This document shows, in pieces, positions 1 through 54,802 of a stretch of 64,000 nucleotides of DNA. The notes below the pieces were generated by a model. That model worked only from the letters and a program-made list of their open reading frames with translations. It was not told where the DNA came from and did no database searches. This DNA is from a virus. Where the stretch lies: IMG/VR virus record IMGVR_UViG_3300031957_002411, positions 62,001 to 126,000 of that record, one strand, 5' to 3'. The translations under genes were made by a program, and so were the position numbers. The stretch's first letter is position 1, and each line of letters opens with the position of its first letter.

Positions 1-2
1 GC

Positions 3-3830: not shown

Positions 3831-3831
3831 T

Positions 3832-5862: not shown

Positions 5863-5866
5863 AATT

Positions 5867-20900: not shown

Positions 20901-23900
20901 TTTTTTAATTCAATAGAACCTTTCAAATCTGAGTATGCAAACATTTCAGTAGACGGAGTGGTGCTTCCCTGTAGCGTAACTCCATTTGGAAGTCTAAAGT
21001 CTGTTACATCTGCGTACTTACCTCTAGCTTCTAATAATAAAGGTTTAATATTTATACCTAAACTATTTGCAATTTTCTCAACAGCTCGTATCCTATCAAT
21101 ACTAACTGATGATTCATTGCTACTACTACGACCTAAAGTAATATATAATTTTTTATTATTTGTTGAAAGCCATTCTTTAATAAATCCCATCTCTCTGTTA
21201 AACACTGTATCACTTATGGGATCACCATTATCGTCTAGCAGTGTCGGATTAGCAATCCAAGCAGCTTGATAATGATCGTTGTCTACATAAAATTTAAATG
21301 TTGTAATAGTATCTAATTTTCCGTCAGAAGGTATAGAGGCTTCAAGTAAAGCATCTAAGATAGACTCTTCTCTAGCTTCAAAGAATGAGTCAGTTCCTGT
21401 CCAATCAGCAATGAAAGCGAAGTCTTTTAGTCTCTCTGTTTCACTTCCAACCTCGTAAAGAAGATTGTCATAGAATAAAACATGTCTATCGTCACGACCA
21501 CTAAATATAAATGATCTTAGCTCTGTCTCAGTAGTGCCAATTAATATTACCTCTGACGAGCTTTCTGCATATTTTTCTTTAGCAGTTATTACCAAAGGCT
21601 GGATATTAACAGATGACCTCTTCTGTTCTTTTTCTGGATTGGATTCCCCTCTTAGAATATTAGTTTTATTAAACGATTGATCTGGAGTAGTTATAAATTT
21701 ACTAGGACTTGAAGTAGGCTGTATATTTAAATTAATACGCTTGTAATTATTTGAGTCAGCTGACCAGTAAAAAGCAGCCTCTTCAAAGGGATCATCTCCA
21801 AACACATCTTCAGATATAATTTCAGTACCCATTATATCTTCAATAATTATTTCATCTGGTGTAGCTGGTGTCACCTTCTCAAAACTAACATGTTCTGAAG
21901 CCACCATCAGAGGAATTGGCTCATAATTTATTAAAGTAGGAAATACTGGACAATCACCTTCACCAAGGCAACATCCATAATCAAGTTCATTAACAGTTCC
22001 AAACGCAAAAGCTAGATTAACTGGATATATGATAACTCCAAGACCTCTTGGGTCTTCACAAAAGTCATTCCATTCTGCTCTAAGGTCTCCACCGTGTTGA
22101 GGTATCATATTACATCTACTGTTTAGATCTGCATAACTTGGAAAATCTCCTATTTCTGGAATGCCAAGAATATTCTTTCTTTCTTCACAAGTATATGCTT
22201 CGTATATACCGGGGTAATTTAGTTTTATATCACCCACGCCTGATGCGTAAAGATCAGTACTAAGAACATAAGTTGATGTAGTATTTCTAGGAACAAAGGA
22301 TGGTATTACATTTGGTTCATTTTCATTGAATTCTTGGTCATCAAGTCTATTCGACCCAATCATAGATTCAAACGAATTTCTAGCAGGAACAATCGTCATT
22401 CTAGAATCTAATCGTTGAAGAATCTTATTTATTATTGCAGTGCCTTCTGCGTAAATCCCATTACCTTCAAATCTAGGATCATCAGCGACAAGAACTAAAT
22501 GTCTATCACCAAGACCCAACCAATCTTGTATGTTGTCTAAAACTTCATCACTTAGTGCATCTATTTCTGGAGTTATTATAAATGCTAATCCTGCGTCATT
22601 AGGAATGTCAACTTCACTCTCTGGCAGTCTAGTAAATGTTTTGGAATTTGAAGCAAAAATCTGCGACATGTGATCAAACAGATTAGCACCTTGTGATTCA
22701 ATATTTACAGATCTATGTTTGTTACCAAACAAAGTAAACTCTACAGCTTTATTGTTGTGCGGATAGTATCTTCTAGATTCAAAAACAGTTACAGAACCAG
22801 CATTAACACTATTGTACCATTGACTTTTAATATGTGTTACGTGATTGTAGTTAGTTTGTGGCCTCCACCATAGATCAATTAATCTAAGTGGATCGCCAGT
22901 ACCTATGTCGTCATGTAAAACGCTATCAGTTGGCGCACCAGCTGCTACTATACTACCATCCTCGTTAACTGCAACACTGTAGCCTAGCCTTGGAGTAGGA
23001 GCAAACTTATTAAACAACCAGCTCCATTCACCTCCCGGTTTTATTTCTGAATACTTATATTCTTTTATTAAATCATAACAATGTATATTATTATCTCTAC
23101 GTAACTGCAATTTACCACTTGGTGTTAATTCATCATACACAGCATTGTCAGCAACACTATTACTACCTGCCTCGCTTTGAAGACTTTGCCACCTTCTAAG
23201 CATGGTTCTCAAGTATCCCGTTGGATTGTCATTAGACCCAACATCAGAAAGCCAACTACCCACATAAGGTCTTGGATCTACGTAATTTTTTTGCCATATT
23301 TGAACTGCTTCATTAATATAAGGAGAGCCAATAGCAATAACATTTGCATCATCACTAATTGCAACAGCGTGTCCAAATCTATCTACCGTATTATTATTTA
23401 ATGTTGTTGGAGAATAAATCTCATCTATGATATTCCATCCAGAAACTCCATCATTATTTTCTTCTTCAAAAACAACAACTACACCACCACTAGGTGGAGC
23501 TACATTGAATGTAGCAGCATCAACGTCGAAGTTACCTATAAAGTTAGCAAACAATTCAAAATCTCTAGAATTTTTCATTCTATCTAAATCTAAAGTTTGA
23601 CGCAACAATTCATTGGAAAGATCTATCCACCTTTCTCCTCCAAGCTCTCTATTTGTAAACTCAGTTGTAGCTCCAGATCTAGGAGTTCCACCTATGTCTG
23701 TCACACCACTAGCAAGAGAGTATTCTGCATACCAATCTTTAAATCTATCGAATGAAGCACCTAGTTTTCCTGCTCCCATAGAAAAGCTATCATCAATAAT
23801 AGCAGAAACAATTACAGGTATATTATTGTTTGGTTTTGTTGCATCATACTTGAATACGCCACTCTCTGCACCGTGGAAGATTTGTTTTAGTTGTTCAAGC

Positions 23901-26900
23901 ATTTTGTCATCTGTAGCTTGCCATCCACCAGTTTGATTGTTATCAGTTCGTTTGTGATTATTAATCTCAAACTTGAACACTGTTCCATCTGCTTCTGGAT
24001 CTATAAATTCGTTAGGATCTGCATTAGCGTCATCCAAAACAGGCTCAACTACAATAATCTTAGGATCTATTTTAACAGCAGGATCACAATAGAACTTATA
24101 TAGTAAATCATGTTCTTCAATGACAGATAGAACATCACGCCATGTTTGCGTAATAGGATGTCCACCCGGACCACGGAATGTGCGCTCTTGCACAAATGGA
24201 GATGTAAAGACAAACAGGGCTACTTGTAAAGAATCTGGAACTGGGTCATCAAATCTTCTAGACCACTTACCGTTTGGCGCACCTGCAACAATAATAGGAC
24301 TGTTTCCAGAGCTAGACATGTCTAATGAATATCCTAGATTTCTACCTTCTTGGTTAAGCGTCCAGTTAGTCTGTATAGCAGCGAATGGAAGATCCCTCTG
24401 ATTGGCTGTCCCTTCATTCAATCTAGTAATGACGGATCTTGTCTTGCTATCTCTTCTCATTCCCTCTGGATAAGCCAGTTCTGTTACTAGAGAGAATCCA
24501 GATTTATCATCTTGCTCAGACCAATCAAAGCCGGTAGGTGCAGGATTTCTTTTGTACACAAATACTGAACCAGCTTCTCCAAGAGAATACGATCCAGTGA
24601 AATCGTGTACTTCACGATATGGCGCACCCACAAGTAAGTAGTTGCCCTTTGCTTTAACGGATGCTCCATATTCGTCACTGTAATCTCGACCAGAAGCTTC
24701 AGGAGTACTAACAACGCCAGAAGCTCCAGATATACCATCAGCAATTAACTTGATACCAGAGAAATTAACTTCATCATTAAACCCATACTCTATGCTCATT
24801 GATGCTGGAACACTTTTTCTGTCAGTGCCTCCAGACTTACCAAATATAGTCATTTCATAAGGAGAGTCAGGCACAAGTCCAGTATATTTTCTGATTCCAT
24901 AGAAGTGACCACTGTATCCTACATCTGTTTTAAAGCCACTAGTAGCTAGATTAGTATACAATCGTTTAGGTCTAAATATTCCAGCTTCTACACAATCATC
25001 ACCAAATGTTTCTCCGTGGATAGTAATTGGAGTCTCAGTTGCTCTTTCAAAATTGAAGTCACAGCTGCCAAATGCTGTCAAATCAACACCACGTATTTCA
25101 TCATTGGCTTCTAAATATGAATAATCAGTTTCATTTGCTAGAATACCTGTTCCAACATTTTCATTAGTCCAGTTGATGAAGTTGGAAGCATTGTCTGTAT
25201 TCGCCAAGAATGCGTAACTCATAGTTACAAGGTTTAGATTAGAAACTCCAGAAGGCACAACTCTAGAACCAATTACAAACAGAGGCATTTGATCTATATT
25301 TGTATCTTGTACTGGCTGTACTGTATTCTCAGTATACAGATTCATTAACTGTGTATCTGTAGTAGGATCTGGAATTGTACCATGTACGAATAAAGATTGT
25401 TGTTGATCTGTTTCGATCACGCCATCAGAGAATGAAAATAAACCTATACTACCAGATGGTGGCAGTGGTGTGATGTCCGTAGTGACAAATAAATTCATCT
25501 CAGAACGAGCATCCAACTCTATCTTACCACCAACAAAAAGACTAATAGCAGGATTATGAGTTTGTATATGTGGCTCATGACCAAATAATTCACCAATAGA
25601 ACCAAAAGAATTTAGACTTGGATCAAATGTTATACTTCCCTCGATGGTGCTAGTCACTAATGTCAAAGGTGGAATACTACCATTTATAGGATCGAGCGAT
25701 ACAATATTTGTACCAGAAGTGTAAAGATTAGCACTTCCACTAGCTACAGGAACAGCTTCACCGCTTGTGTATAGATTAAAGTTTCCAGAGTCTATGACAT
25801 GACTATTTACAAAGAACTCTATAGCTTGATTACGAATAGTGCGACCGTCAACATAGAAAGTAAATCCAGATTCAGGGATTATTATTCCAGAAGCCAAAGC
25901 CTCTTCAGCTCTAAGATTTACAGCATGTAATTTAAGATTAGATCTAAATGATGTGCCAGATGGATATGCTAAGTCATACTGAACAAACATTTCATCTAAA
26001 TCAAAATTGTAATATGCTTCAGTCTTTTCTCTATCAATTACATCGCTGTTGAAGTCAGCCCAAGGTTCTGAGTTGTCAATAAAATCTTCATAAGTGAAAG
26101 TACTGCTCAACTTTTGCCAGCAACCACTCTGCTCTAAGTAGTGTGCCTTACGATTTACTAAGCCATAATTACTTCTTTCAAGCTCACTGGTGTCGTTATA
26201 TTGTGGCGCATAAAGGCTAACAATTAACTTAGGACCAGTTGTTCCATCTGACCATGTAACATTATTATCAATGTCATGTTCCATTATGGTGTCAACAACT
26301 AATCCTCTTTGTGTAAAATCGTAACCTCTCGGTAAAGATTTAGATATTCTAGGTGTGACTGCGTAAAATCTATCACTATTGTCATCTCTTGGCACACTAA
26401 GATTAAATCTTAACATGTCATTTTCTATCTGAGAATGATAAGCTAAACCTGATACATTTATAGAGCCACTTGGTAAAGCAGTATCAGTCCTTTGAGTATA
26501 ACCACTACCATCATGAGATAGGTTAAAGATAACAAAATCCTTGCCTACTCTTGTTGTAAATCTATCAAACTCATGATTAAATTGACAAATCTTAAAGTCA
26601 CCCAAGTGCCACTTTTCAGTTTCATCGTTTACATATTCCCAGAAATTGTATTGTCGTTTATCGTAAGTAAGACTGCCACTATCAAATGGTACTTTAAGAG
26701 TCCTGAAGTAACCAGAGGCAGAGGTTTGCTGCATTACTCTAGATTGCTCAGACGGAATCAATCCTTGAACAATATTAGCACCACTAGCATTAAATCCACC
26801 TAAACCTATGTCTGTTATAAATGCGTTAATACCTATACCAGAACCATAAGAGTGACCAGCAATGATGTCGCTATTGCCTGATTGCATGACAAAGGTATTA

Positions 26901-29803
26901 GATCTTGCTCTAAATATATTATCTCTAGAGGAATCATCATCAGTATATAATTTAAGATAACGACTATCATTATCATTATAAGTTAGTAGTACGCTAAGTG
27001 GATAACTATACTTACTATACAATTTTGTATCAAAGACAGAGTTAATACTACCATCAGTGGCTCTAGCATATCCAGCAAGATATCCACCACTGTAACCAAG
27101 AGCAAATTCAAGTTCTTCTCCACTATCCCATTTGGATAACAGCACCCCAGAATCCCAAAGGTTGTAAGAGCTTCCACTAATACTTATGTCAGGAGAAAAT
27201 CTAACATAGGCCGAGAAACCTCCAGAAACTGGGATGCCGCTTCCAAAATTAATATTACCATCTACTCCAGATACTCTAATAGCTTTATTGAATGAATCAG
27301 AGATTCTACCTTTAAGTTCATGGTCTGATTGCACCCAATCAAGAGTTTTATATGATCGTTGCGAAGTATCAAAAATGCCACTACTGTTAAATCTAAGACC
27401 AATGTTTTCTACTATGCTGGCGTTTGCGTCAGAGTTAAAGAAACCACTAGCTGCCGCAGCAGCAAAAGCACCTATTGGGTTAGACAAAACAAAATTATCT
27501 TGAACGCGAGTGAAATCATAGAAGCCACTCATGAACGGAGTTTCTAGTTCTGGATTATAAAATCCATAGCCAAACTGAACTGGGTTGAATGGACCATTTA
27601 CAATCTCACCATCAACGCCTCTCCATCTTCTTGAATAATTTGTTTTAAGTGTTGATTCTTTATCTAATTCTTTATATCCATGAGGTATATTTTCTATCAA
27701 AGATGAATCTACAACTGTGATGTCTGAATTAATGTTTGTTGGAAAATCAGAAGAACCTGAAGGTAGAGCAAAGAACTCTGATCTGTGGAATGGCCTATTG
27801 TTATCTTGATGACCAACAACATGGAGAGGGAAAGCGTTGGAAGGCTTATAAGTAAATGATAAATATGCATGTGCAATTGCAGCGCCGCTGGGGAATGGGA
27901 ATATATCAAGATATAAATGTTCAAAGTAACTACTATCATTGTATGTAGTACTAGCACCTAGATCAACATCATCTTCATATATTTTTAGAGGTATTGTATA
28001 CTCTGCAAATTCTGTGCTATTTATAACAGGGCTTGTTGGAAGAGAATAATGATCACCACCTTCATTGTTAGTTCCAGATGTTGCGAAGTAACTAAACTTA
28101 TCAGAGAAAGTTTCTGTAGATATTCCAAGATCGTCAATCCCACCAAACCCAGACTCAACTGGCATTACACCAATGCCAGAAGGATGCTCACCAGAAGCAT
28201 TCTGTAGGAATCCACCTATCTTTGGAGTTATGTGGAAAAGTTTGTCATCGCTATATCCCACAACGTCTACAACAAAATCTCTAGTTCCAATTGCTTTTTT
28301 AGCTATTATCTTAAGTTCTATATCTTCTATTTGGAAGAAAGAATCTACTTCAGCAAAGTTTTTGCTTTGAGCTGTTTTCAACCCAAATCCAAACTGTCTG
28401 TCAAATTCACCATCTCTCAAGCCAAAGACAGAAGTTGGTGGTTCATGACCAAACTTTAATTTAAGTTTACCTGAGTCAGCAACGTCAGATGTCGATACTA
28501 ACTCAATAAATCTACCTTGATCGCTTGACCTTAAGGATTGAGTAATTTCATTCTCAACCTCATAATTAAATACATTACTATCATTCTTCCAAACTGAATT
28601 TTCACCAGATGGGTAAATAGTAGTATCATAATTGTAAGCTAATACTTGAGATGGTAATATCTCTCTTACTGAACGTAATCCTGTTTCTTGTGATTTTATG
28701 TATACTCCAAGATCGCCATTATCTATAATTCCAGACACACCTAAAGCACCACCGCTTGCCATGATTTCTATGGCTGCTATATTCAAAGTATCATGAACAT
28801 TTACGCCAGTTGGAATGCAGCTCTGGTCGTAGCCAATACTAAAGCCTTCAGTGAATGAGTCGTCATCTGGTCTGCATTGTACATCTATATCTAAATTTAA
28901 TGTATAACCATTACTCATATTGAGTATGGGATAATTAGCGTTAGATGTTAGCAACTTTGCATTATTAGTTTCAGCTTCAGATATATATGTTACATAATTT
29001 TTGTAATCACTATTGTCAGTATCAGCGTCACCTATGATATCAAAATCTTTATACTTAGTAATGAGATTGCCAGAGGGATCTTCTAATCTAAGATTTGAAA
29101 GTGTGTACTTTGGTGGCACATTAGAAGAAGATGAATTGAGTGGCGCTATAGCTCTAATAATTAAGAAGCTATCACGCATAGCAGGATATGGAGGATCTAC
29201 AAAACATTTGAATTTAAATGTTGTTTGTTCAGAAAGATCTCCACTTATAGCGATATTTTGGTTTTCATTTGCTACCAAGAAACTTTGTTTGAAATTGCCG
29301 GTAAATACACCTTCGTCAATATAATCTATTTTACTATCAGTATCTGTAATATCGGTGTGATTAAGAGTTTTAATAATAGTATTATTACCACTATCAAGAA
29401 TTAAATCACCACTGGGATATATCTTTTTAGTAGATATAAAATCATCTAAGCTTAATAGAGAACTATAATTACCTGCAAGTTTATCGACCGTGCCAGTTTT
29501 AATACTACCTGTACCAATAGTACGAGCTATAATGTTTCCTTCAATTAAATCAATAGTAGCATTAACAAATGCGTTTTTAGATGTATTGTCTGTTGGTTGT
29601 GCGCTTATTGATAGAGATGGCTTTTTTATACTTGATATGCTTTCAAATCTATGTATAAAACTATGAAAAGTTGTAGAACCTAATAAGGATGTTTCTGTAT
29701 TCAAATTTGTTAGCGCATTACCTTGAACAGATATCCCAGACAATAGCTTACTAGAGCCAGAAGGTCTACCTGTCATTTTAGCGCTGCAAAAAAAATCACT
29801 CAT
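17918..29803 (-). CDS. Giant virion protein with LamG-like domain, seven FG-GAP blades and a DxSxS insertion
   Basis: At 3961 residues this is the longest gene in the window. Residues 1-830 are beta-rich and unrecognised. Residues about 835-1000 resemble a laminin-G/concanavalin lectin domain. Residues 1338-1525 and the last 65 residues carry a repeated 'LYxSG/LFVxG' strand. Seven FG-GAP motifs of integrin-alpha beta-propellers, pattern FGxSV..D....VGAP, centre near residues 1726, 1841, 2159, 2289, 3501, 3628 and 3762. The insertion between motifs 2 and 3 contains a hydrophobic strand leading to D2004-x-S2006-x-S2008, the metal-site (MIDAS) signature of von Willebrand A domains. The insertion of about 1,100 extra residues between motifs 4 and 5 holds two Rossmann-like segments near residues 2400-2470 and 2870-2930. 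It lies two bases after the tape-measure gene, so a tail-tip adhesin is likely. Domain calls are by eye. Confidence 0.72.
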   Translation of the reverse strand: MSDFFCSAKMTGRPSGSSKLLSGISVQGNALTNLNTETSLLGSTTFHSFIHRFESISSIKKPSLSISAQPTDNTSKNAFVNATIDLIEGNIIARTIGTGSIKTGTVDKLAGNYSSLLSLDDFISTKKIYPSGDLILDSGNNTIIKTLNHTDITDTDSKIDYIDEGVFTGNFKQSFLVANENQNIAISGDLSEQTTFKFKCFVDPPYPAMRDSFLIIRAIAPLNSSSSNVPPKYTLSNLRLEDPSGNLITKYKDFDIIGDADTDNSDYKNYVTYISEAETNNAKLLTSNANYPILNMSNGYTLNLDIDVQCRPDDDSFTEGFSIGYDQSCIPTGVNVHDTLNIAAIEIMASGGALGVSGIIDNGDLGVYIKSQETGLRSVREILPSQVLAYNYDTTIYPSGENSVWKNDSNVFNYEVENEITQSLRSSDQGRFIELVSTSDVADSGKLKLKFGHEPPTSVFGLRDGEFDRQFGFGLKTAQSKNFAEVDSFFQIEDIELKIIAKKAIGTRDFVVDVVGYSDDKLFHITPKIGGFLQNASGEHPSGIGVMPVESGFGGIDDLGISTETFSDKFSYFATSGTNNEGGDHYSLPTSPVINSTEFAEYTIPLKIYEDDVDLGASTTYNDSSYFEHLYLDIFPFPSGAAIAHAYLSFTYKPSNAFPLHVVGHQDNNRPFHRSEFFALPSGSSDFPTNINSDITVVDSSLIENIPHGYKELDKESTLKTNYSRRWRGVDGEIVNGPFNPVQFGYGFYNPELETPFMSGFYDFTRVQDNFVLSNPIGAFAAAAASGFFNSDANASIVENIGLRFNSSGIFDTSQRSYKTLDWVQSDHELKGRISDSFNKAIRVSGVDGNINFGSGIPVSGGFSAYVRFSPDISISGSSYNLWDSGVLLSKWDSGEELEFALGYSGGYLAGYARATDGSINSVFDTKLYSKYSYPLSVLLTYNDNDSRYLKLYTDDDSSRDNIFRARSNTFVMQSGNSDIIAGHSYGSGIGINAFITDIGLGGFNASGANIVQGLIPSEQSRVMQQTSASGYFRTLKVPFDSGSLTYDKRQYNFWEYVNDETEKWHLGDFKICQFNHEFDRFTTRVGKDFVIFNLSHDGSGYTQRTDTALPSGSINVSGLAYHSQIENDMLRFNLSVPRDDNSDRFYAVTPRISKSLPRGYDFTQRGLVVDTIMEHDIDNNVTWSDGTTGPKLIVSLYAPQYNDTSELERSNYGLVNRKAHYLEQSGCWQKLSSTFTYEDFIDNSEPWADFNSDVIDREKTEAYYNFDLDEMFVQYDLAYPSGTSFRSNLKLHAVNLRAEEALASGIIIPESGFTFYVDGRTIRNQAIEFFVNSHVIDSGNFNLYTSGEAVPVASGSANLYTSGTNIVSLDPINGSIPPLTLVTSTIEGSITFDPSLNSFGSIGELFGHEPHIQTHNPAISLFVGGKIELDARSEMNLFVTTDITPLPPSGSIGLFSFSDGVIETDQQQSLFVHGTIPDPTTDTQLMNLYTENTVQPVQDTNIDQMPLFVIGSRVVPSGVSNLNLVTMSYAFLANTDNASNFINWTNENVGTGILANETDYSYLEANDEIRGVDLTAFGSCDFNFERATETPITIHGETFGDDCVEAGIFRPKRLYTNLATSGFKTDVGYSGHFYGIRKYTGLVPDSPYEMTIFGKSGGTDRKSVPASMSIEYGFNDEVNFSGIKLIADGISGASGVVSTPEASGRDYSDEYGASVKAKGNYLLVGAPYREVHDFTGSYSLGEAGSVFVYKRNPAPTGFDWSEQDDKSGFSLVTELAYPEGMRRDSKTRSVITRLNEGTANQRDLPFAAIQTNWTLNQEGRNLGYSLDMSSSGNSPIIVAGAPNGKWSRRFDDPVPDSLQVALFVFTSPFVQERTFRGPGGHPITQTWRDVLSVIEEHDLLYKFYCDPAVKIDPKIIVVEPVLDDANADPNEFIDPEADGTVFKFEINNHKRTDNNQTGGWQATDDKMLEQLKQIFHGAESGVFKYDATKPNNNIPVIVSAIIDDSFSMGAGKLGASFDRFKDWYAEYSLASGVTDIGGTPRSGATTEFTNRELGGERWIDLSNELLRQTLDLDRMKNSRDFELFANFIGNFDVDAATFNVAPPSGGVVVVFEEENNDGVSGWNIIDEIYSPTTLNNNTVDRFGHAVAISDDANVIAIGSPYINEAVQIWQKNYVDPRPYVGSWLSDVGSNDNPTGYLRTMLRRWQSLQSEAGSNSVADNAVYDELTPSGKLQLRRDNNIHCYDLIKEYKYSEIKPGGEWSWLFNKFAPTPRLGYSVAVNEDGSIVAAGAPTDSVLHDDIGTGDPLRLIDLWWRPQTNYNHVTHIKSQWYNSVNAGSVTVFESRRYYPHNNKAVEFTLFGNKHRSVNIESQGANLFDHMSQIFASNSKTFTRLPESEVDIPNDAGLAFIITPEIDALSDEVLDNIQDWLGLGDRHLVLVADDPRFEGNGIYAEGTAIINKILQRLDSRMTIVPARNSFESMIGSNRLDDQEFNENEPNVIPSFVPRNTTSTYVLSTDLYASGVGDIKLNYPGIYEAYTCEERKNILGIPEIGDFPSYADLNSRCNMIPQHGGDLRAEWNDFCEDPRGLGVIIYPVNLAFAFGTVNELDYGCCLGEGDCPVFPTLINYEPIPLMVASEHVSFEKVTPATPDEIIIEDIMGTEIISEDVFGDDPFEEAAFYWSADSNNYKRINLNIQPTSSPSKFITTPDQSFNKTNILRGESNPEKEQKRSSVNIQPLVITAKEKYAESSSEVILIGTTETELRSFIFSGRDDRHVLFYDNLLYEVGSETERLKDFAFIADWTGTDSFFEAREESILDALLEASIPSDGKLDTITTFKFYVDNDHYQAAWIANPTLLDDNGDPISDTVFNREMGFIKEWLSTNNKKLYITLGRSSSNESSVSIDRIRAVEKIANSLGINIKPLLLEARGKYADVTDFRLPNGVTLQGSTTPSTEMFAYSDLKGSIELKNAYGRISNNTIAEIRDIPLGSLVCVDIRSGGTALLSSQSRNSNDIHNITDDFIEIIDVPYLKTGVASVTFPVLAGSGYRVFVDTISANFNEKLQTNFLISNCDRRYGAQASGSNVEIKDVIHIPGNPQHNEFRTVANDFIGARIHKTRSEQQKYDINAFTPRQREFQFDGSVNHESINIYIPSGDGTTAIDVNEITIYMDANKINYTLEQAQSLSFNPSTTRIVGISGALLPSDVKLTPVPVKVGEREIIIPGTPEVVTTVTESRPVSTNSMKYCPSTECSGIFIERNPDGLIDDGPVVAAQEVYHQRPFDVGVDKSRITVLTDASLIQGSRIANENGVIHDTVADFLNSLYPDTVFPDENQGNSYNVISRIKAPVQSSPQKLFNSTGNSGLMIRFAGDGTTPTSGLQMNNFMDDVDPAAERNGNVITILDIDIGESPLYILPTDLPPRPEQVPALKKAQIASFDQEQYIYGGTAKFSGIIDGTMYADAFYGQMPQLLKDKGYDYLDFDKLPSGYPGDLFGYSVAIRDNKLVVGSPFAAFSSETPTTWTAVSGNTPRYEAISGTITSYGGGAGSAFLYERGTRTLSDYGVVGGSSKSWNVVRKFRPTSINVGQDIFDVELASGSLHLGNHAYTSGELDHLTRVTDQFGYSVDFRDDVLAVGAPGHDFPNFEEMIFSRGGEASGAFNHKAFSASIDIPERNIYDMGESGVRHEYALGGSGVTAVLNNGAVFVYEDAVSDWDSRTKDWQLVQKLVPQGYNSRLQKTVSASGSENDYFGKALSVSRDKTSDSDYIFAVGSPHHKFATSGNHTTFTMGLDAGAAYVSDGILRVPDQTTANTGIFLQARIYSDSGIDRSQTSNVSDFIYLEVHNSGGLNTEHETSGVLYTNNEGEIFLEVSGQDPSQRGFVVHRPFIKEITGQRFRGVPIDNRNFTLYTSGRPPVASGSMNLFAEVAEGRVLSSGLGLYASNIPDMVSGVFSGSGFNLYSSGVTTTPSP

Positions 29804-44027: not shown

Positions 44028-44549
44028 TTAGTAACCGAAGTATCCACCTCTAAAATCGTAATTATTATGAGTCCTAGTAACGAAATCACTACCCGGACTG
44101 TAAGGACCAAGTATAGCTTGACCCGCTAGACTTCCACCAGCAACATAATCGTATGTGAGCTGATCGTATTTTTCGCACAAATCTTTGTATAATACATTTA
44201 ACGTATTTGCGACACCTCTCAAGTCTATTGCAGAAGGTCCGTCCTTAATTGATATCGCATTGGAAGCCTCTGATCTAACTTCACTGCCAATTATTACACA
44301 GGCAGTTTTTAGCGTAGTTAAATTTATAAAAGCATTATCTTTTGTGTCAGTATCTGTAGGATCAGGTGTCAATGTAGATTGTTCGACATTAACAACGTAA
44401 TCATTGTCAAAATCCATGTCTTGAGAAACAAGTTGTGCAGCCACTAGTATTGTTGTCTCTAATCTAGAAACAGAGTACTTATAATTAGTTTGGTCTACGT
44501 CATTTATCATATGACGAACCATAGTTGAAATTTGACCTTGCCAAGACAT
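44028..44549 (-). CDS. Head-tail adaptor-like connector protein
   Basis: A 173-residue protein with an N-terminal helical part (MVRHMINDVDQTNYKYSVSR), a helix around TTILVAAQLVSQD, then LTTLKTACVIIGSEVRSEA and a C-terminal Gly/Tyr-rich tail. This helical make-up and length, with 'Y-S-x-x-R-L' near the start, are typical of head-tail adaptor proteins (gp6/gp15 class) that bind the portal. It lies on the head side of the closure and completion genes, as expected. Confidence 0.6.
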   Translation of the reverse strand: MSWQGQISTMVRHMINDVDQTNYKYSVSRLETTILVAAQLVSQDMDFDNDYVVNVEQSTLTPDPTDTDTKDNAFINLTTLKTACVIIGSEVRSEASNAISIKDGPSAIDLRGVANTLNVLYKDLCEKYDQLTYDYVAGGSLAGQAILGPYSPGSDFVTRTHNNYDFRGGYFGY

Positions 44550-45273: not shown

Positions 45274-45870
45274 TTATACTCCTACTTTTTTAGCTCTGCT
45301 AATTGCTAACTTTAATATTTTTTTAGCTCCAAATCTTAAGAATGGTAAACGTCTTTTTTTAGCCTCTTCCTCAAGCCAATCTAGTATAATTTTTTGATTT
45401 TCTTCACACCACTCAATTCCCTTTTTATCCATAACTTTCGCTTTTTGATTACAACTGCAATTGGGAGTTGCCCTAATTCCTATGTAAGACAGTAGTTTTT
45501 TAAGCTCAGTCCCAACGCCGCTAGAAGACTCGTCTTCTTTAGGAAGATTTGGAGGTTTTGCTGGAAATTCTACATGAGAATCTTTTATTTTATTATCTAC
45601 ATCAGCATATTCTTGAGAATTCTCTCCATACTTATCAGCTATAAAATTTCTTTGGAAAATATTGACAGCTTCCTCATTTCCCACAATTGACATATCATTT
45701 GGTATACTATCATCTCCATCAAATAATTTTGGAGGATATACCGGATTCTCTGTATCCACTGTCCATACAGGACCGTCCATGTCAACAATACAAGCTGACG
45801 AGGACTCAATAGTTACAGCATATTTTCCACACAATTTACAAAATTCCATTCTATCCATTTTTCTATACAT
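45274..45870 (-). CDS. Cys-containing virion-associated protein with an MDxxGxxWCEEN domain
   Basis: I start this 198-residue protein at ATG 45870 (MYRKMDRMEFCKLCG), preceded by AAAGG; an in-frame TTG at 45903 overlaps the upstream gene and is less likely. The N-terminus has a CKLC pair. The C-terminal 70 residues contain PNCSCNQKAKVMDKKG, then WCEENQKIILDWLEEEAKKR and LPFLRFGAKKI. I recall this conserved small domain from phage structural loci, where it is of unknown function. It sits between the Cys-repeat protein and the small Ig-like gene, so it may assist folding or attachment of that protein. That is inference. Confidence 0.58.
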   Translation of the reverse strand: MYRKMDRMEFCKLCGKYAVTIESSSACIVDMDGPVWTVDTENPVYPPKLFDGDDSIPNDMSIVGNEEAVNIFQRNFIADKYGENSQEYADVDNKIKDSHVEFPAKPPNLPKEDESSSGVGTELKKLLSYIGIRATPNCSCNQKAKVMDKKGIEWCEENQKIILDWLEEEAKKRRLPFLRFGAKKILKLAISRAKKVGV

Positions 45871-45887
45871 GTTAATACCCTTTCTTT

Positions 45888-48800
45888 TTAAATTAATATC
45901 CAACCTTCACCAAACGCTTGTTCGCAATCATAATTACTCAAATACCCCGGTTCGTCTCCACATCCATCAAAATAACCCGGATCACCACTCCCATCGTAAT
46001 CTCCTTTCATACAACTTGGAGTGCTGCACTGACAACCATCATACGCTGGACCAATATTGTCATCACATGCTTCACACATGGTTTGTCCAGCATCCACTGC
46101 ATCTTTTACGGATTGAGGCCAGCAACATTCGCGCGGTCCATAATAATCATTGTGAACATCGGTAGCAGTCGTCCACCCCCCACAATCTCTTTCACAATCA
46201 AAATCATAATTATAGAAATGTCCCCCGAAGTTGGCATCACATGCTTCATCAGTATCGCCCCCAGAAGCGCTTCCGGGCTGACTGATTGATGGGCAGCCAC
46301 AATATTCATCACTTGTACTATAACTCAAAGTCCATAAAGGAGGACCAGAAGGGCAAGCTGATGTACTAATAACAGTTCCAAAACTTACGCTAGCGGCAGT
46401 GCAATTTGTGCAGTTTCCACCAATTTGCCAGCCATCACAAGCTACCCCATCATAAGATTGACCACCAGCCTTAGCGTTACATAAAAAGAATTTTTGATAA
46501 TATGGTGCATCAGGACCATTATTACCAACAACTTTAGTAGCACTCCAGCTACAAGTTTCACTTTCATAAGCCCATTGATGTCTTGCGCTATCAGCTGTAC
46601 AATTTGCAAAAGGACCAAAGAATCCACTCCCGTCCCAACTTCCCTGTTCGTTATCATCACAGCCACATGAAACACCACTACATTCATCATCAGGTGGATC
46701 GAAAGCTGTTGTGGTTGGTCCCGCTGTTGTTGCTGCTGCTGTTGTGGTTGTTGCTGCCGCTGTGGTTGATGTTGTTGGCGCTGCTGTTGTTGATGTTGTT
46801 GGTGCTGCTGTTGTTGATGTTGTTGGCGCTGCTGTTGTGGTTGTTGCTGCTCCTGTTGTGGTTGCTGCTCCTGTTGTTGATGTTGTTGGCGCTGCTGTGG
46901 TTGTTGTTGGTGTCGGTGTTGTTGATGTTTCTGTTGTTGATGTTCCTGTCGTTGACGTTGACGTTGATGTTGAAGTTGATGTTGAAGTTGATGTTGAAGT
47001 TGATGTTGAAGTTGATGTTGAAGTTGATGTTGGTGCTTCCGTTGTAGTTGGCGCTAATGTTGTTGTTGGTGCTTCTGTGCTTGTTGGTGGTGGTGTTCCC
47101 ATAGTTGAGCAGGGCTTATAACTAGTTAAGCAAGAAATATAAGCTAAAACACCAGTGTTTTCTCCCCTTCTTGTGATGGCAACTTCAATTACCTCATATA
47201 CAGGTGTAGGAGGATAACTTTCAAAATAGATACCATTCCATTTAAAACACATTCCGGGGAAAGCAGGTTGATCAGGACATTCTGGAGGTGCAGGGCATAA
47301 TGAACCTGCTGGACAAGACCAATCAATAATGCACCCATTGCTATCTCTTATGGGGTCAGGAGCTATTGCAGATCCAATAACTCCAGTTCTTGGATCGCAC
47401 TCTTCAAAACAACCGGGTTGATCAGGTACTGGAGGACATGGGGCGCGAGTTGTAACAGGTGGCGGGGTAGTAGGAGGAGAAGGATCAAGACAGGGATCAC
47501 CGTCTGGACATGTACAATTTTTTGGGCAACCTCTATTATCAAAAGTATATTCCCCTTCATTCCATCTATTTGCTGATTCATCATAACAATATTGCATTGG
47601 AACTAAACCGCATGGAACCGTAGGGTCTTGAGGAGGGCTACCATCTGGACAAGTATAACCTATTATACATCTACGTCCTTCATCACCAAAAACTGGACCA
47701 TATATAGGATCAGCTTGCACTATATCCCCATTTTCGTCAACACAAGTTTCCACTGGTATATCTCGGCAATGTGGAGGTTGTGGCCTTGGAGGTTCTGGAT
47801 CTTCACCAGTAGGGCAATCTTTAAATCCAATCACACATAGATTTTTATCAAGTATGGGGTCTGCTGGAGTCCATAGACCTGTTAAGGGATCGTAGCAATA
47901 CTCCCACTCATCTACATCGTCACTGCAAGGATTAGGTGCTGGGTCCGGTGGATCGCCATCTTCACATAGAAATCCAATAATACAGCCTGTCCCCTCATTT
48001 ATTACAGGTGTAGCTGGAGTCCAACTATTTGTAGTTGGGTCATAGCAATACTGCTGATCTATTGGTCTACATTCTGGAGGAGGTGGTACGGGATCGTTAT
48101 CTTCATCTATACAATTTTGATCAGTTATACATCCTGTAACTTGATCTATTTCTGGAGTAGCGGGAAAAATTTCACCTGTTTCGGGATCATAACAATACTC
48201 TTGCAATACATTGTCTTGACAACCTTCTGGTGGATCTACCGGAGGGCTTCCATCTGGGCATGTGTAACCAGTGACACATCCTTGTTCATCCAGTGTTGGT
48301 GTTGCAGGAGTCTTGAAACCATCTTCGTCCACACAGTACTTTGTCTCTATTTCGCAAGGCGATGGAGGCAATGGAGGAAACGGATCTTCTGGATCTCCAT
48401 CATCATCTCTGTCTTCGCAAATTTGATCAATTATACATCCGTTTGAATCCAAAACTGGAGTTGCAAAATATATCTCGTTTGTTGTTGAGTCCAAACAGTA
48501 ATGTTGTAAAACAGTAGGACAATCATCTGAAGGATCTCTAGGAGGGCCTCCATCTGTGCAGAAAAAGCCAGTAATACATCCTCTTTCGTCCACTCTCGGT
48601 GTTGCAGGAACTTCGTTTCCATTTTCATCTAAACATACTTTCATAGGAAAAGTAGGACATGGAGTAGGTGGAAATGGAGTATCTGGTTCACCATCGCCAT
48701 CCCTATCTTCACAAGTGGGATCAGTTGGACATCCATCCGGCCCTACTGCTGAATCTGGGATATATATTTCACCTGTTGTTGGGTCTTGGCAGTATGTCTG

Positions 48801-51359
48801 TAATATAATAGGACAATCACCATCTGGATCTCTAGGAGGGCTTGGTTCAGGACAAGTATATCCAGTAATACAACCTCTATAGTCTGTTATAGGTGTTGCA
48901 GGAATTTCTTTTCCATTTATGTCAAAGCATATTTTGACTTCAACATCTTCACACGGACTAGGTGGAAACGGGCCATCAGGATTGCCATCGCCATCCCTGT
49001 CTTCACAAGTTCCTTGAACTGGACATCCGTTTTCGTCCAACCTTGAAGTTGGTAGATATATTTCACCAGTTGTTTTGTCGTAACAATACTGCTGTGCCCA
49101 GCGCCCATCTGGAGACGGACAGGAATCTGGTGGGTCAATTGGAGTGCCTCCATCCACACATCTATAGTCTACAACACAGCCGGTAACAGAGTCTACTACG
49201 GGTAATGCAGGAACTTTAGTTCCATTGCTTAAGATGCATATTTGCTTCTGAATGTCCTGACACGGAATAGGTGGAAACGGGCCATCAGGATTGCCATCGC
49301 CATCCCTGTCTTCACAAGTTCCTTGAACTGGACATCCATCTGGACCGATTGCTAAATCTGGAATATATATCTGACCCGTTGTTGGGTCATAACAATATTG
49401 TTGTAAAATTACAGGACAGTTATCATCTGGATCTCTAGGAGGGCTTGCGTCTGGACAAAAGTAGCCAACAACGCATCCATTATCTATTATAGGTGTTGCT
49501 GGAATTTCATTGCCATCTACATCAAGACATATTTTTATTTCAATGTCATCACATGGAATGGGTGGAATCGGAATTTCTGGATCACCGTCACCGTCTCTAT
49601 CTTCGCAAATCCCTTCGGTGGGACATCCATCTGGGCCTATTTGTGGAGCAGCAAAATATAATTCACCTGTTACTGGGTCTAAGCAGTATTTTTGAAGAAT
49701 AATAGGACATTCATCTGGAGGATCTACAGGAGGACCAGCTGGACATGTATAACCAGTAACACAACCATTTGAATCTACTGTGGGTATTGCTGGAATTTCA
49801 TTTCCATTTTCATCCAAACATATTTTAATTTCAACGTCATCACATGGATGAGGTGGAAACGGATTATCAAGACGACATTCAAAATCAATAACACAACCAT
49901 CTTCATTAAGAACTGGAATGCCGGGGACTATATTGCCATCATCGTCAAAACAGTATTTAGTATCAATGTCATCACACTCTGGAGGCACAGGATCTGTAGG
50001 AGGTGGAAATGGACCAAAATCACCGTCATCACATTCAAAATCAATAGCACAACCAAAGTAAGGTGAGTTGGGATCTGTGTCTCTCACCGGCCTTGCATGA
50101 TAAAAACTTCCATCTGGACCTTTACAAAGAACATCTATAGGTATATCAGGACAATGTGGAGGTTGGACAGGGCCAGTAGTTCTTGTTGTTGTTGTAACTT
50201 CAGAAGTAGTAGTCACAACTGGTGGTTCTTCTGGATCTGGAGGTCTACATGGATCACCAACCAAAGGCACGCGACCAAATAACCTTAATGTATAAGAGTA
50301 ATCACTATATAGTGCAAAAGTGCGTCCATAAGCAGTTACATTTGCAAAGAAAGCTACTTTTATTATTTCTTCATTAAAATTACTTAATATAAATGTATCC
50401 AAATACGGATAGTTATTTAAAGGGGAGGTAGTAGGTATATTTATTGTTTTAAACGCTCGCCATGTACCTTGACCTCTGCCATCCAATCTGTAAAAAGTGA
50501 TTCCGTCAATCTTACAAGTATCGCAACCGCCGTAATTTGGATTAGTTATTCTTACCCTATTAGAATTACAGTAAGGTGGTACTGGAGTATAACTTAGGTC
50601 TTCTGCAATTAAGGGTGTTGAAGGTGGGTTTTTATCATTACAAACCACGCCGTTGCCAACTTTCTGAATCTTTATACTTTCAATCAAAGAAGGGCAACAA
50701 GCAAGATGATTATCGTCGCAAATGCTTTCTACTTTTAATATCACAAAAGAATTTTGCAAGTCTATGCTTTTATCTATTATATCACAAGACTGAAATTCTA
50801 TATTATCTAACCTTCCAAATTCACCATCATAAGAAAAACTCTTAGTGGCTATTACAGATTGATCTGGTGATAAAATACTAAATTGTAAGTTTTTAGCAAG
50901 AAGTAGTTTATCAGATACTTCAGTGTCAAATAATTCAGATGCTGTTAACTTAATGTTATTAGGCTTTAGTTCAGAGCCATGAGAAAAATCTACAGATGCA
51001 GAGGAGAACAGTTGATTTTTAGAATTAACAGATACTTCATTTTTATGTATGAAATTTCCAGAAGCAACATTATTTATAGTAACTGTTAAATCTGTTCCTG
51101 AAGGCAGGGCTATTTCACCACAAGTACATCTAGAGTCATCACTTCTAAGATTGTACCTTATGTTGTTATCTTTTAAAGAGAGATAACCACGATACATGCA
51201 TTGATCAACAAAATATCTTTCTGGATTTACAACATACTTTCTCTTGCTTGCGTGGGGATCTACAGTGGTTGTAGTTGTAGAAGTTGTTGTAACAGTTTGG
51301 TATTTAAGGAAAGGATCTGCTGGTGGATCGCACCTTTTCCGTTGTGGGTGAATTCCCAT
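45888..51359 (-). CDS. Giant Cys-repeat and mucin-like surface protein
   Basis: An 1823-residue protein. Residues 1-380 are beta-rich with Thr runs. Residues about 403-1370 contain about 19 four-cysteine modules of roughly 40-60 residues in two alternating forms. Type A reads like CDDVEIKICLDENGNEIPA with a later GC and a closing C. Type B reads like CPIILQ-YC-D-TGEIY with GPDGCP and a closing CEDRDGDG loop. The DRDGDGNPD loops resemble the calcium loops of thrombospondin type 3 repeats and dockerins. Residues about 1420-1551 are almost only Thr, Ser, Ala and Pro, like a mucin. The last 270 residues are again Cys-rich. The start has AAAGGAA upstream. I do not recognise the repeat family. It lies among fibre genes after the capsid genes, so a capsid or collar appendage is plausible. 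Confidence 0.72.
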   Translation of the reverse strand: MGIHPQRKRCDPPADPFLKYQTVTTTSTTTTTVDPHASKRKYVVNPERYFVDQCMYRGYLSLKDNNIRYNLRSDDSRCTCGEIALPSGTDLTVTINNVASGNFIHKNEVSVNSKNQLFSSASVDFSHGSELKPNNIKLTASELFDTEVSDKLLLAKNLQFSILSPDQSVIATKSFSYDGEFGRLDNIEFQSCDIIDKSIDLQNSFVILKVESICDDNHLACCPSLIESIKIQKVGNGVVCNDKNPPSTPLIAEDLSYTPVPPYCNSNRVRITNPNYGGCDTCKIDGITFYRLDGRGQGTWRAFKTINIPTTSPLNNYPYLDTFILSNFNEEIIKVAFFANVTAYGRTFALYSDYSYTLRLFGRVPLVGDPCRPPDPEEPPVVTTTSEVTTTTRTTGPVQPPHCPDIPIDVLCKGPDGSFYHARPVRDTDPNSPYFGCAIDFECDDGDFGPFPPPTDPVPPECDDIDTKYCFDDDGNIVPGIPVLNEDGCVIDFECRLDNPFPPHPCDDVEIKICLDENGNEIPAIPTVDSNGCVTGYTCPAGPPVDPPDECPIILQKYCLDPVTGELYFAAPQIGPDGCPTEGICEDRDGDGDPEIPIPPIPCDDIEIKICLDVDGNEIPATPIIDNGCVVGYFCPDASPPRDPDDNCPVILQQYCYDPTTGQIYIPDLAIGPDGCPVQGTCEDRDGDGNPDGPFPPIPCQDIQKQICILSNGTKVPALPVVDSVTGCVVDYRCVDGGTPIDPPDSCPSPDGRWAQQYCYDKTTGEIYLPTSRLDENGCPVQGTCEDRDGDGNPDGPFPPSPCEDVEVKICFDINGKEIPATPITDYRGCITGYTCPEPSPPRDPDGDCPIILQTYCQDPTTGEIYIPDSAVGPDGCPTDPTCEDRDGDGEPDTPFPPTPCPTFPMKVCLDENGNEVPATPRVDERGCITGFFCTDGGPPRDPSDDCPTVLQHYCLDSTTNEIYFATPVLDSNGCIIDQICEDRDDDGDPEDPFPPLPPSPCEIETKYCVDEDGFKTPATPTLDEQGCVTGYTCPDGSPPVDPPEGCQDNVLQEYCYDPETGEIFPATPEIDQVTGCITDQNCIDEDNDPVPPPPECRPIDQQYCYDPTTNSWTPATPVINEGTGCIIGFLCEDGDPPDPAPNPCSDDVDEWEYCYDPLTGLWTPADPILDKNLCVIGFKDCPTGEDPEPPRPQPPHCRDIPVETCVDENGDIVQADPIYGPVFGDEGRRCIIGYTCPDGSPPQDPTVPCGLVPMQYCYDESANRWNEGEYTFDNRGCPKNCTCPDGDPCLDPSPPTTPPPVTTRAPCPPVPDQPGCFEECDPRTGVIGSAIAPDPIRDSNGCIIDWSCPAGSLCPAPPECPDQPAFPGMCFKWNGIYFESYPPTPVYEVIEVAITRRGENTGVLAYISCLTSYKPCSTMGTPPPTSTEAPTTTLAPTTTEAPTSTSTSTSTSTSTSTSTSTSTSTSTSTTGTSTTETSTTPTPTTTTAAPTTSTTGAATTTGAATTTTAAPTTSTTAAPTTSTTAAPTTSTTAAATTTTAAATTAGPTTTAFDPPDDECSGVSCGCDDNEQGSWDGSGFFGPFANCTADSARHQWAYESETCSWSATKVVGNNGPDAPYYQKFFLCNAKAGGQSYDGVACDGWQIGGNCTNCTAASVSFGTVISTSACPSGPPLWTLSYSTSDEYCGCPSISQPGSASGGDTDEACDANFGGHFYNYDFDCERDCGGWTTATDVHNDYYGPRECCWPQSVKDAVDAGQTMCEACDDNIGPAYDGCQCSTPSCMKGDYDGSGDPGYFDGCGDEPGYLSNYDCEQAFGEGWILI
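46706..47096. repeat. Coding microsatellite for the Thr/Ser tract
   Basis: A low-complexity region inside the Cys-repeat gene. From 46963 to about 47032 a 12-base unit GTTGATGTTGAA is repeated nearly six times (Ser-Thr dipeptides on the minus strand). From about 46730 to 46900 a 24-base unit coding for AAPTTSTT occurs several times with small changes. Unit lengths are multiples of three, so copy-number change would keep the frame. Confidence 0.85.
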
Positions 51360-51370
51360 AAAATATTCCT

Positions 51371-54300
51371 TTACTTACAACAGCTACCGCAAGCTATATC
51401 TTCATTATTAATAAAAATAGGTCTATATTGTGAATTTATATTTAAGGCTACAACAAAGTCCCCAGATGATATGTGTAAATTTTTATCTCTATTGACAATG
51501 TATATTCTTTCATTGCTAGGTTCTATTTCTAAAATTCCACTTGTGGGTGAACCATAAGAACTAGGTGTAGCTATACCTGTCTTCATGAAACCTTCTACCG
51601 CAAAAGGAACCATTCCAGAAAGTGTTGGTAGAGCATTGGTTTCTACAGAAGTACCATCCCTGAACCTAACAGCACCAAGTAACTTAAGATCTCCAGATAG
51701 AGAAGCGAAAGGTCTAGCAATACTAGGAGCTTCAAAACTAGGAGCAAACTCAACCCCAGACATTTCTGGAGCAGAGTGATCAAAAGTCATAAGATCATGA
51801 GAGCCGTGAAGACCGCTACCAGTAAATCTAAGATGAAGATCATAAGGAACTCTATAAGAATCTTTAATTTCTGTTTCTATCATGTCATGCGTAAACTTTA
51901 GATACTCAGTCCTAGTAGGATCTTCAGCCATCAAAGTCGCACCCTTCGCAGTCATAGCATAGCTACCATGTAATCCACTAACGGTAATATCATTATTATT
52001 TCCAATTTGGAAACCATTATCACCTATGGCTGGAAGATTATTACCTATAGAAATTACATTCATGTTGGCAGCATTTGAACTAATATTACTACCAAGGAAT
52101 ATATTACCACTTCCAACTGACAAGGTATTTACATTGTTATTTCCAAGGATTGTATTGCCAGAAGCTAGAGTAAAACCGTTAGCAGAATTGTGTCCAACAA
52201 CAATATTGCCAGAACCTATTGCGCTAGACTTGGAGGAGCTGCTACCAATCACTGTGTTTCCAGAACCTGTAGCAATCCCTTCTGCTGACCTAAAGCCAAC
52301 AGCGACATTGTTAGAGCCAGTTAAAATACCACTCAAAGCTCCATAACCATAGGCAGTATTTCTAACACCAGAGATAGCAGATCTATTAAGAGGAGAAAGT
52401 ATACCAGCAAAGGTATTACCACTGTCCATAGTGTCTGTGAACACTAAGTTATCTTGTGAATCAAATCTACTTCTTGTTACAGTTGCTATGTTTCCACTAC
52501 TATCTAAGAACTGAAGCTTTTGAGATCTATTAGGTATAAAATCATATTTTACATAAAGTCTACCAAAACCACTATCGTATATTGGATTGATAGTAAGGTT
52601 ATCATCCATAACTTCATGCATCTTGATCACACCGCTTGGATGACCAGATCCACCAATAGTTAATAATTCACTAAGCTCTCCAACCCCACTAGAGCAAATG
52701 CCAACATAGCCACTTTCTGATATAGCTGTAGCCATTACACCGCTAGTAGTTTGATAGATTGTTATACTACCAAGCTTATCGACAGAATCATACTTTACTT
52801 CTAGCCCATCCGATACGCAATTGTTTCCTGTAAGTAATTGCAAAGCACTGCTAACGTCACCAGCGTTTTCAGCAGTAATTCTTGCTTCTGCATTAGTGTC
52901 AGATCTAACGTTAAATATTGTCGCTGGAGTAAGTGAAAATCCAGCACCCTCATGATCAAAATTATTTATACCAAAAACACCCTTATCACTAGCGCTATTC
53001 GGTTTTTTCATTAACATGAAATGATTAGTAGAATATGAATCATTGTCATATGAACTAAATACTAGTCTATCGGTATTCAAACCTTCAGAGTCAAGAGTTT
53101 GATCATCAACATAAGTTATTTCAAATCCCTGTAAGAAATCCTTAAGATTTTCTCCAGAATTTAAAACTTTGTTACCAGTTAAAAATCTTTGGATAACATT
53201 GATGTCCCCAGACTCTGGAGCGGCGATGGTAAAGATGTAGTCGTTATTAACACCAGAATTTGCTAATAAATTAAAATCACCAAGTCCAGCGTAATCACCA
53301 CTATTGTCTACAATGTTTTCTTTAGCTATGAATGCTCTGCCACTCTCCAAGAATAAACCTTTACATTCATTGAACAAAGGTCCATATCCATAATGTAATA
53401 AAGATACATTTCCGCTATCTAGAACTCTACCAGTTTTAACATGGCATCCACTGCCCATATGCAAGCTAATATTACTATTCCAACTAGACCTAGTATAAAG
53501 AGTGTCTTCGTCTAGGCAGTCTGCTAGAAGTGGATCTAAGCTAGTGCTTGGCTTGAAGATAAATTCATATTCTCTAAACTCAGCTGGAGAAGTACCACTT
53601 CCTCTAGCTATAAATCCAGCGCCTTCTAGTTCAGCATCTGTAAGATAGCCCTGTGGGTGATTTGTCTCAGGATCGAACAAAACATTAAAATTAATACCAC
53701 TGACTGTACCGCCATCAATCGTATCGAAAGTGCCACTAGAAGCTAAATGTATAGTTTTAGTGAGGTAATGGCTTTGCTGAGTTGCTACAAAGGATTCTAA
53801 CTCAGTAATACCGCTAACAGTAAGATTATTACCAATGTGTACATTTGAAGATATATTGGCGTTTTTAGTCCACAGGTCTTTCCATTCGTGATGACCATAT
53901 CCTAGATCGTATGTTTGAGATGTGCCAAACGGAACGAAGTCTCCAGAAGAAATTAAATATGGATCATAATCAAAAAACTGGGTGATTAAGGATTCGCTAG
54001 ATATAAGGGCAGAACCACTCATGACTACACCATGAGACAAATATAGTTTATCCCAATAGTAAGATGAGTGACCAAGATTAAAATCACGATCCATAGAAGG
54101 AGATATATTACCGCTTGTCTGTAATGTTCCTACTTCCTTGCTATGAAGACCTCTAGTTCCAACACCCAAAATTAAATTATTATTTGTTAGATCGCCATAA
54201 ACAAGCGGCGTTAAGCCTGTACCTTCAGGATTTGAACAAACGAAACTATGATCGACGGCGTGTGAGCCAATGTACAATTTATAGTCTGTACCTGTTGCAG

Positions 54301-54802
54301 CATAATATCCAGCTCCTTGCCCTATTGCTATGTTCCAATTGCCATTCTTGTTTCTGCTTAAAGAGTGAGAACCTACGCCTACATTGCCATAACCATTAAT
54401 ATTTCCAGTTAAAGCATGTCTACCAATCGCAGCATTCTCTACGCCATATATATTACAAGATAAAGCACTGGCTCCTAAAGCTGTATTACCACTACCTTGA
54501 TAACTAGAATACAAAGCTTGGTAGCCAACAGCTGTGTCGTCTGTAGTTGTGTAATTAGGAAGGTCTAGCTTATCTAAAGCCTCTAAGCCTATCTTTACAC
54601 TTCTTGTGCTAGGTGTAGAGAAATTATTAGAAATTAAATCAGCTATCGTTAAATTTAATTCAGGATCAAGTAGGTTATTGACAGAATCAATAATGTCTAT
54701 TAAATTATGACGAATATCGTGTGGAGAAATTTGACCAGTAATATTATCATTAATTTCAGAGTTTATATTCTCTGTTATCTGACTCTTGGACAGGTTAGCC
54801 AT
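51371..54802 (-). CDS. Fibre with YadA-head-like repeats
   Basis: An 1143-residue protein. Its first 45 residues match the N-terminal module of the 352-residue fibre-like protein encoded from 44013. Residues about 85-170 (GSGNTALGASALSCN, NAAIGRHALTGN, GNVGVGSHSLSRN, NIAIGQGAG) and 815-940 (NNVAVGFRSAEG, GNTVIGSSSSKS, GNIVVGHNSANG, GNTILGNNNV) are strings of 13-16 residue units with 'xAxGxxA/S'. This is the signature of the left-handed beta-roll of trimeric adhesins such as YadA. The middle part is beta-rich. It is probably a trimeric fibre used for attachment. It lies between capsid genes and connector genes, so it could project from the capsid rather than the tail tip. Confidence 0.8.
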   Translation of the reverse strand: MANLSKSQITENINSEINDNITGQISPHDIRHNLIDIIDSVNNLLDPELNLTIADLISNNFSTPSTRSVKIGLEALDKLDLPNYTTTDDTAVGYQALYSSYQGSGNTALGASALSCNIYGVENAAIGRHALTGNINGYGNVGVGSHSLSRNKNGNWNIAIGQGAGYYAATGTDYKLYIGSHAVDHSFVCSNPEGTGLTPLVYGDLTNNNLILGVGTRGLHSKEVGTLQTSGNISPSMDRDFNLGHSSYYWDKLYLSHGVVMSGSALISSESLITQFFDYDPYLISSGDFVPFGTSQTYDLGYGHHEWKDLWTKNANISSNVHIGNNLTVSGITELESFVATQQSHYLTKTIHLASSGTFDTIDGGTVSGINFNVLFDPETNHPQGYLTDAELEGAGFIARGSGTSPAEFREYEFIFKPSTSLDPLLADCLDEDTLYTRSSWNSNISLHMGSGCHVKTGRVLDSGNVSLLHYGYGPLFNECKGLFLESGRAFIAKENIVDNSGDYAGLGDFNLLANSGVNNDYIFTIAAPESGDINVIQRFLTGNKVLNSGENLKDFLQGFEITYVDDQTLDSEGLNTDRLVFSSYDNDSYSTNHFMLMKKPNSASDKGVFGINNFDHEGAGFSLTPATIFNVRSDTNAEARITAENAGDVSSALQLLTGNNCVSDGLEVKYDSVDKLGSITIYQTTSGVMATAISESGYVGICSSGVGELSELLTIGGSGHPSGVIKMHEVMDDNLTINPIYDSGFGRLYVKYDFIPNRSQKLQFLDSSGNIATVTRSRFDSQDNLVFTDTMDSGNTFAGILSPLNRSAISGVRNTAYGYGALSGILTGSNNVAVGFRSAEGIATGSGNTVIGSSSSKSSAIGSGNIVVGHNSANGFTLASGNTILGNNNVNTLSVGSGNIFLGSNISSNAANMNVISIGNNLPAIGDNGFQIGNNNDITVSGLHGSYAMTAKGATLMAEDPTRTEYLKFTHDMIETEIKDSYRVPYDLHLRFTGSGLHGSHDLMTFDHSAPEMSGVEFAPSFEAPSIARPFASLSGDLKLLGAVRFRDGTSVETNALPTLSGMVPFAVEGFMKTGIATPSSYGSPTSGILEIEPSNERIYIVNRDKNLHISSGDFVVALNINSQYRPIFINNEDIACGSCCK

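Follow-up and report, generated by a model that had tools for sequence, protein, structure and literature searches.

Among the appendages described at the head–tail junction of phages, those closest to the locus analyzed here are the lactococcal neck passage structures. In 936 phages, they combine a conserved N-terminal β-sandwich with variable carbohydrate-binding ends and are reported for 73 of 113 phages, and the collar of TP901-1 at the head–tail junction has been described as non-essential (PMC6669499). The neck passage proteins of both groups bear a trimeric coiled-coil spacer and BppA-type carbohydrate-binding modules (PMC6669499). P0001—the protein at the center of this analysis, known from genes alone—resembles these proteins in its predicted N-terminal sandwich, its interchangeable ends, and its optional occurrence. 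It differs from them by using Thr linkers and Cys modules as spacer, and no sequence relation between the two was found; we do not assign P0001 to the neck passage structures. The literature yielded nothing that bears directly on Thr linkers or on Cys modules as parts of a phage particle.

The analyzed stretch of DNA, hereafter the window, comprises 64,000 nucleotides of an IMG/VR virus record of 135,790 bases. P0001 is encoded by a single minus-strand ORF and contains 121 Cys in 1823 residues. It fills a slot between a structural gene and a conserved gene, and its layout and that of its surroundings are as follows (window positions).
51371..54802 (−), upstream slot flank, virion structural protein (PHROG 6002/4636)
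45888..51359 (−), P0001 ORF from the ORF call, 1823-residue mosaic protein with the module array
51252..51359 (−), N-terminal signature, residues 1–36, MGxxPxxxxCDxxxxPFLxY plus a TTT run, also present in slot proteins of relatives
50652..51134 (−), CPCG domain, residues 76–236, predicted β-sandwich and conserved core of the slot family (blastp, profile, and AF2)
residues 237–380, stretch between the CPCG domain and the Thr linker
50172..50219 (−), Thr-rich linker preceding the array, residues 381–396 (direct reading)
47298..50153 (−), 19 four-Cys modules with Pro-rich linkers between them, residues 403–1354
residues 1355–1417, short Cys-rich stretch after the array
46695..47102 (−), Ser/Thr-rich linker, residues 1420–1555, 64% S+T, with short tandem repeats in the DNA
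45891..46694 (−), C-terminal Cys-rich domain, residues 1556–1823, candidate tip domain
45274..45903 (−), partner gene g209, 209 residues, directly downstream of P0001, Cys-containing, travels with CPCG proteins
44028..44549 (−), downstream slot flank, conserved 173-residue gene, 49–85% identity across the lineage

P0001 sits within an unbroken run of structural genes on the minus strand. A ClpP-type protease, the terminase, head genes, and a 1143-residue structural protein precede it; the 209-residue gene follows, and further along come small genes, the conserved 173-residue gene—which we take to be probably a head–tail connector—tail-fibre genes, and a 1791-residue tape-measure-like protein (PhageMin_Tail). 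The nearby tail-fibre genes match cyanophage baseplate/tail-fibre connectors. The start of P0001 lies 11 bases past the upstream structural gene and the next gene overlaps it by 16 bases; hence, P0001 is probably co-transcribed with its neighbours.

The array of P0001 is a true, well-constrained run of an undescribed module. Its 19 copies follow the pattern C-x6..11-C-x17..24-C-x5..6-C and continue into a Pro/Asp-rich stretch, with extra Cys in modules 18 and 19. The strict four-Cys pattern is observed 17 times, compared with 0.24 expected and a maximum of 3 in 2000 composition shuffles. The earlier note on this DNA had described about 19 alternating four-cysteine modules in one protein: the 19 modules and the single ORF stand, but clear alternation is confined to modules 3–14, where identity amounts to 0.58 at offset 2 and 0.35 at offset 1. 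Identity is 0.55 within type A, 0.62 within type B, and 0.35 between the two, and modules 1, 2, and 15–19 fit either type poorly—divergence is greater toward both ends of the array. Type B was also said to end mostly in CEDRDGDGxPD. Such DxDxDG loops do exist, all of them in type B and five in number (0.2 expected), which corresponds to about one module in four.
49575..49601 (−), DxDxDG loop of module 4, DRDGDGDPE
49284..49310 (−), DxDxDG loop of module 6, DRDGDGNPD
48975..49001 (−), DxDxDG loop of module 8, DRDGDGNPD
48681..48707 (−), DxDxDG loop of module 10, DRDGDGEPD
48387..48413 (−), DxDxDG loop of module 12, DRDDDGDPE

Between module copies, mean pS (0.55) exceeds pN (0.24 for B, 0.29 for A), which indicates that the protein sequence is maintained. 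Two other IMG/VR contigs carry the same DNA with 3 mismatches in 11.4 kb and 0 in 17.5 kb, respectively, and thus exclude an assembly accident.

The module family could not be recognized in the earlier note, and our searches agree: whole P0001 and its modules gave nothing usable against Pfam, PHROGs, PDB sequences, or INPHARED by tblastn, and IMG/VR scans with the N-terminus, the C-terminus, and both module types returned near-identical contigs only. A module profile matched none of 20 related records at E ≤ 1 and, among 80 related loci, the window phage alone at E ≤ 0.01. The one match of a scan of genome contigs (L017) is a 343-residue ORF antisense to an 825-residue conjugation-type ATPase and was discarded as chance. 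Matches to 'Cake'/PQQ and Kelch come from a short common turn (YDPxTNxW or TGxxxxAxP) summed over repeats; the consecutive blade motifs of a β-propeller are not found over the domain, and blades lack the four-Cys frame. The proposed likeness to thrombospondin type 3 is restricted to the motif: both bear aspartate DxDxDG loops in Cys-containing tandem repeats, but P0001 has the loop in 5 of 19 modules and four Cys per module in a spacing of its own, and the TSP_3 profile (PF02412) matched neither the whole record at E ≤ 10 nor any single module. The structure of three consecutive modules, whose prediction the earlier note had suggested, was modeled for modules 4–6 with AlphaFold2, the other modules serving as alignment. 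The model is all-β with short strands only (mean pLDDT 78, pTM 0.57), and a PDB fold search with it yielded nothing significant.

With P0001 as query, only P0001 itself is found; the lineage was reached via the neighbouring genes. The terminase has at least 599 matching stretches in IMG/VR, with 78–100% identity among the best 80. The 173-residue gene has 142 matches, 80 of which were retrieved together with flanks of at most 10 kb per side. The window phage is one member of a large, uncultured lineage of tailed phages with no close INPHARED record; neither the CPCG domain nor the 173-residue gene has a match there. L-numbers below denote the loci or records compared, mostly of related phages.

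In this lineage, the slot is bordered by a head-side structural gene of 1000–1140 residues and the neck-type gene of 173 residues. In the 33 relatives with both borders placed, it contains at least one Thr/Ser-linker protein in 22, including 12 where such a protein bears the CPCG domain, and no gene in 8—counts that are not independent, as some records are near-duplicates. The slot proteins of relatives bear Thr runs and many Cys. Judged by gene content, the slot is an optional and rapidly exchanged one between head-side and neck/tail genes. The CPCG slot proteins (L065/L111, L119, L123, L132, L147, L155, and others) share with P0001 the CPCG domain, Thr/Ser linkers, Cys-rich pieces, and their place, and most share the partner gene. 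The 19-fold array is unique to P0001: relatives carry other domains, with a single module in L132. The array had been called unusual for a phage particle; Cys-rich, Thr-linked slot proteins are common in this lineage, and P0001 stands out by amplifying one module 19-fold.

The N-terminal signature connects P0001 to its relatives by phmmer (E 2.8e-5 for L065, 0.003 for L087) and was recognized by eye in L041, L085, L086, and L089. For the CPCG domain, blastp gives E 1.6e-9 for L065 and 1.5e-6 for L134, and a profile matches 19 relatives, several of them absent from its own input. Identity among relatives is 16–28%, with C3, C5, G6, P11, H30, C139, and CC146-147 conserved in the alignment. For aa 237–402 and the C-terminal domain of P0001, no relatives were found. 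The AF2 model of the CPCG domain from 21 sequences is a β-sandwich (pLDDT 79, pTM 0.75). In a fold search, its best Z was 5.5, which is below significance, and unrelated sandwiches were listed alongside CBM6, CBM32, and TNF-like lectins; BppU is not among the matches listed. Carbohydrate binding by the predicted sandwich would be compatible with these weak neighbours. L109, L158, L147, and L160 have their CPCG domain at an internal position; a role as N-terminal anchor is hence not general. The partner gene, 199–209 residues long, is present at 15 of 19 loci with a CPCG protein and at 2 of the 60 other loci (Fisher p 9e-11, relatedness ignored), and g209 is a possible chaperone or assembly partner. 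We define the CPCG slot family by domain, position, Thr/Ser linkers, and a downstream g209, all of which are found for P0001.

As to the origin of the array, the CPCG protein of L132 contains a single unit of this kind, CPKEPDQPAGPCYDQNNDVIPPDKIMNFYGTCIADWIC. The unit was chosen by pattern among about 2000 ORFs; for a stricter form of the pattern, shuffling of Cys-rich ORFs gives an expectation of 0.015. Compared with modules 17 and 19, it scored higher than all of 1000 Cys-fixed shuffles (z 5.2 and 7.7). By itself, the profile search had missed this unit, and hence homology rests on the pattern expectation and the Cys-fixed shuffles. We read it as the single-copy form of the module type that was amplified in the window phage. 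L159 bears a further repeat protein in the same slot (1232–6604; 1790 residues, 158 Cys), whose own tandem repeat CVDCxWLYECxxxGCVRTxDGTYxTKxxC is another, independent Cys-repeat expansion. In tail-fibre homologues (L115 11493–14783, L164 7954–11223, and L174 11494–14796), Thr linkers flank a four-Cys piece that is followed by RCC1-like sequence—seven RCC1 repeats behind the Thr linker in L115 according to Pfam. These GCPxYSxC pieces resemble the modules but do not outscore Cys-fixed shuffles, and we do not count them as homologues.

The slot proteins of relatives are mosaics. A Pfam scan identified FN3 and F5/8 type C in L103, Gly_rich_2 in L102, and the C-type-lectin-like FGE-sulfatase in L127 (5699–9328) and L104 (1798–5028), and Cys-knots are also among the parts. 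These Pfam classes are common in adhesion and binding proteins, and the mosaic particle proteins of the slot probably help the phage to grip its host. The FGE-sulfatase class is often diversified by retroelements. A diversity-generating retroelement as source of tip variation was rejected: no reverse transcriptase scored above the cut-off in 32 records, nor in the records of L127 and L104. With adhesion-type domains visibly swapped in one slot, the evolution of host range becomes readable from sequence.

The position in the structural cluster, the homologues in the same slot, and the domains of these homologues favor the appendage on the phage particle that the earlier note had considered, as far as gene comparison can tell. 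We read P0001 as an adhesion appendage of the neck/collar or head side, whose array forms a rigid, acidic, disulfide-stabilized spacer, and give this reading a probability of roughly 0.62. We infer its presence in the particle, its neck or collar position, the disulfides, calcium loading of the five DxDxDG loops, and host binding. The CPCG β-sandwich would probably be the shared part, perhaps the anchor or base in the particle. From there, the 19 modules and their Pro-rich linkers would form an extended spacer—the array has a net charge of −144 over 952 residues and 17% Pro—kept extended by Pro-rich linkers and negative charge. With this charge and the invariant Cys, calcium and disulfides in the modules are plausible: Ca2+ would occupy the DxDxDG loops provided that the habitat supplies it, and disulfides would close each module once the particle is outside the cell. 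Several points weigh against our reading: the cytoplasm in which phage proteins fold is reducing, no relatives were found for the C-terminal domain and aa 237–402, the fold matches of the CPCG domain lie below significance, and this domain is not always N-terminal. If the disulfides indeed close only after release, the modules would exemplify a phage particle that matures outside the cell. The Ser/Thr-rich linker might act as flexible hinge bearing the C-terminal Cys-rich tip domain, the likeliest contact to the host surface or its glycans. Such an architecture points to an undescribed appendage design that uses Thr linkers and small Cys modules and not coiled coils or β-helices.

Many genes for sugar nucleotides, glycosyltransferases, epimerases, and methyltransferases are found in window positions 1–5423 and in the record outside the window; with them, the phage may be remodeling glycans or decorating its particle. 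Glycosylation of the Ser/Thr linker is a speculative idea prompted by the sugar-nucleotide and glycosyltransferase genes. A fully specified version—a particle rod of 19 undescribed four-Cys modules, stabilized by disulfides and calcium and tunable in length by gain and loss of repeats, between an anchoring β-sandwich and a flexible Ser/Thr linker that bears a binding tip and may be glycosylated by the phage—is a tentative proposal and rather doubtful as a whole.

The modules could instead be the binding units themselves, lectin-like or matrix-binding, with 19 weak sites adding up to avidity for a polymer of the host surface. The Cys and some Gly and Pro are constant across the modules whereas many of the other positions differ, as would suit a binding array, and binding-type domains occur in slot relatives; still, neither sequence nor fold comparison matched the modules to a known binding module, and a strongly acidic, Pro-rich array suits a spacer better, which makes this reading rather unlikely. 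Less probable again is a product that is no part of the virion; synthesized late, it would be exported or released, for example to act on the surface of the infected cell or on its neighbours. An optional slot and Cys-rich modules, which are usual in exported proteins, would fit such a product, but P0001 has no signal-like N-terminus (no hydrophobic stretch was found there), slot proteins of relatives are embedded among structural genes, and the Thr-linker style recurs in a tail-fibre homologue. Very improbable are modules akin to small protease inhibitors (antistasin or similar) that shield particles from proteases—the units are compact, with four Cys and GCxxxxxC, yet the antistasin profile (PF02822) is blank on the whole record at E ≤ 10 and no Pfam inhibitor matches—and, to the same degree, metal or redox units for zinc or thiol buffering in place of disulfides, as the four Cys are invariant in each module but the standard module lacks CxxC pairs and its 7-19-5 spacing is unlike known zinc motifs.

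At the left end of the record, outside the window, a PSCyt1-PSCyt2-PSD1 protein and a DUF1501 protein are encoded (G000:C1:964-4570; L012 964-4570)—signature genes of Planctomycetota/Verrucomicrobiota. PSCyt2 is absent from 36 related records and has no match in INPHARED, and a near-identical 108-kb contig matches neither PSCyt2 nor the adjoining DNA; these planctomycete-type genes are either viral cargo or an assembly chimera. Within the window, the tail region also encodes a protein of 3961 residues with FG-GAP repeats (17918–29803).
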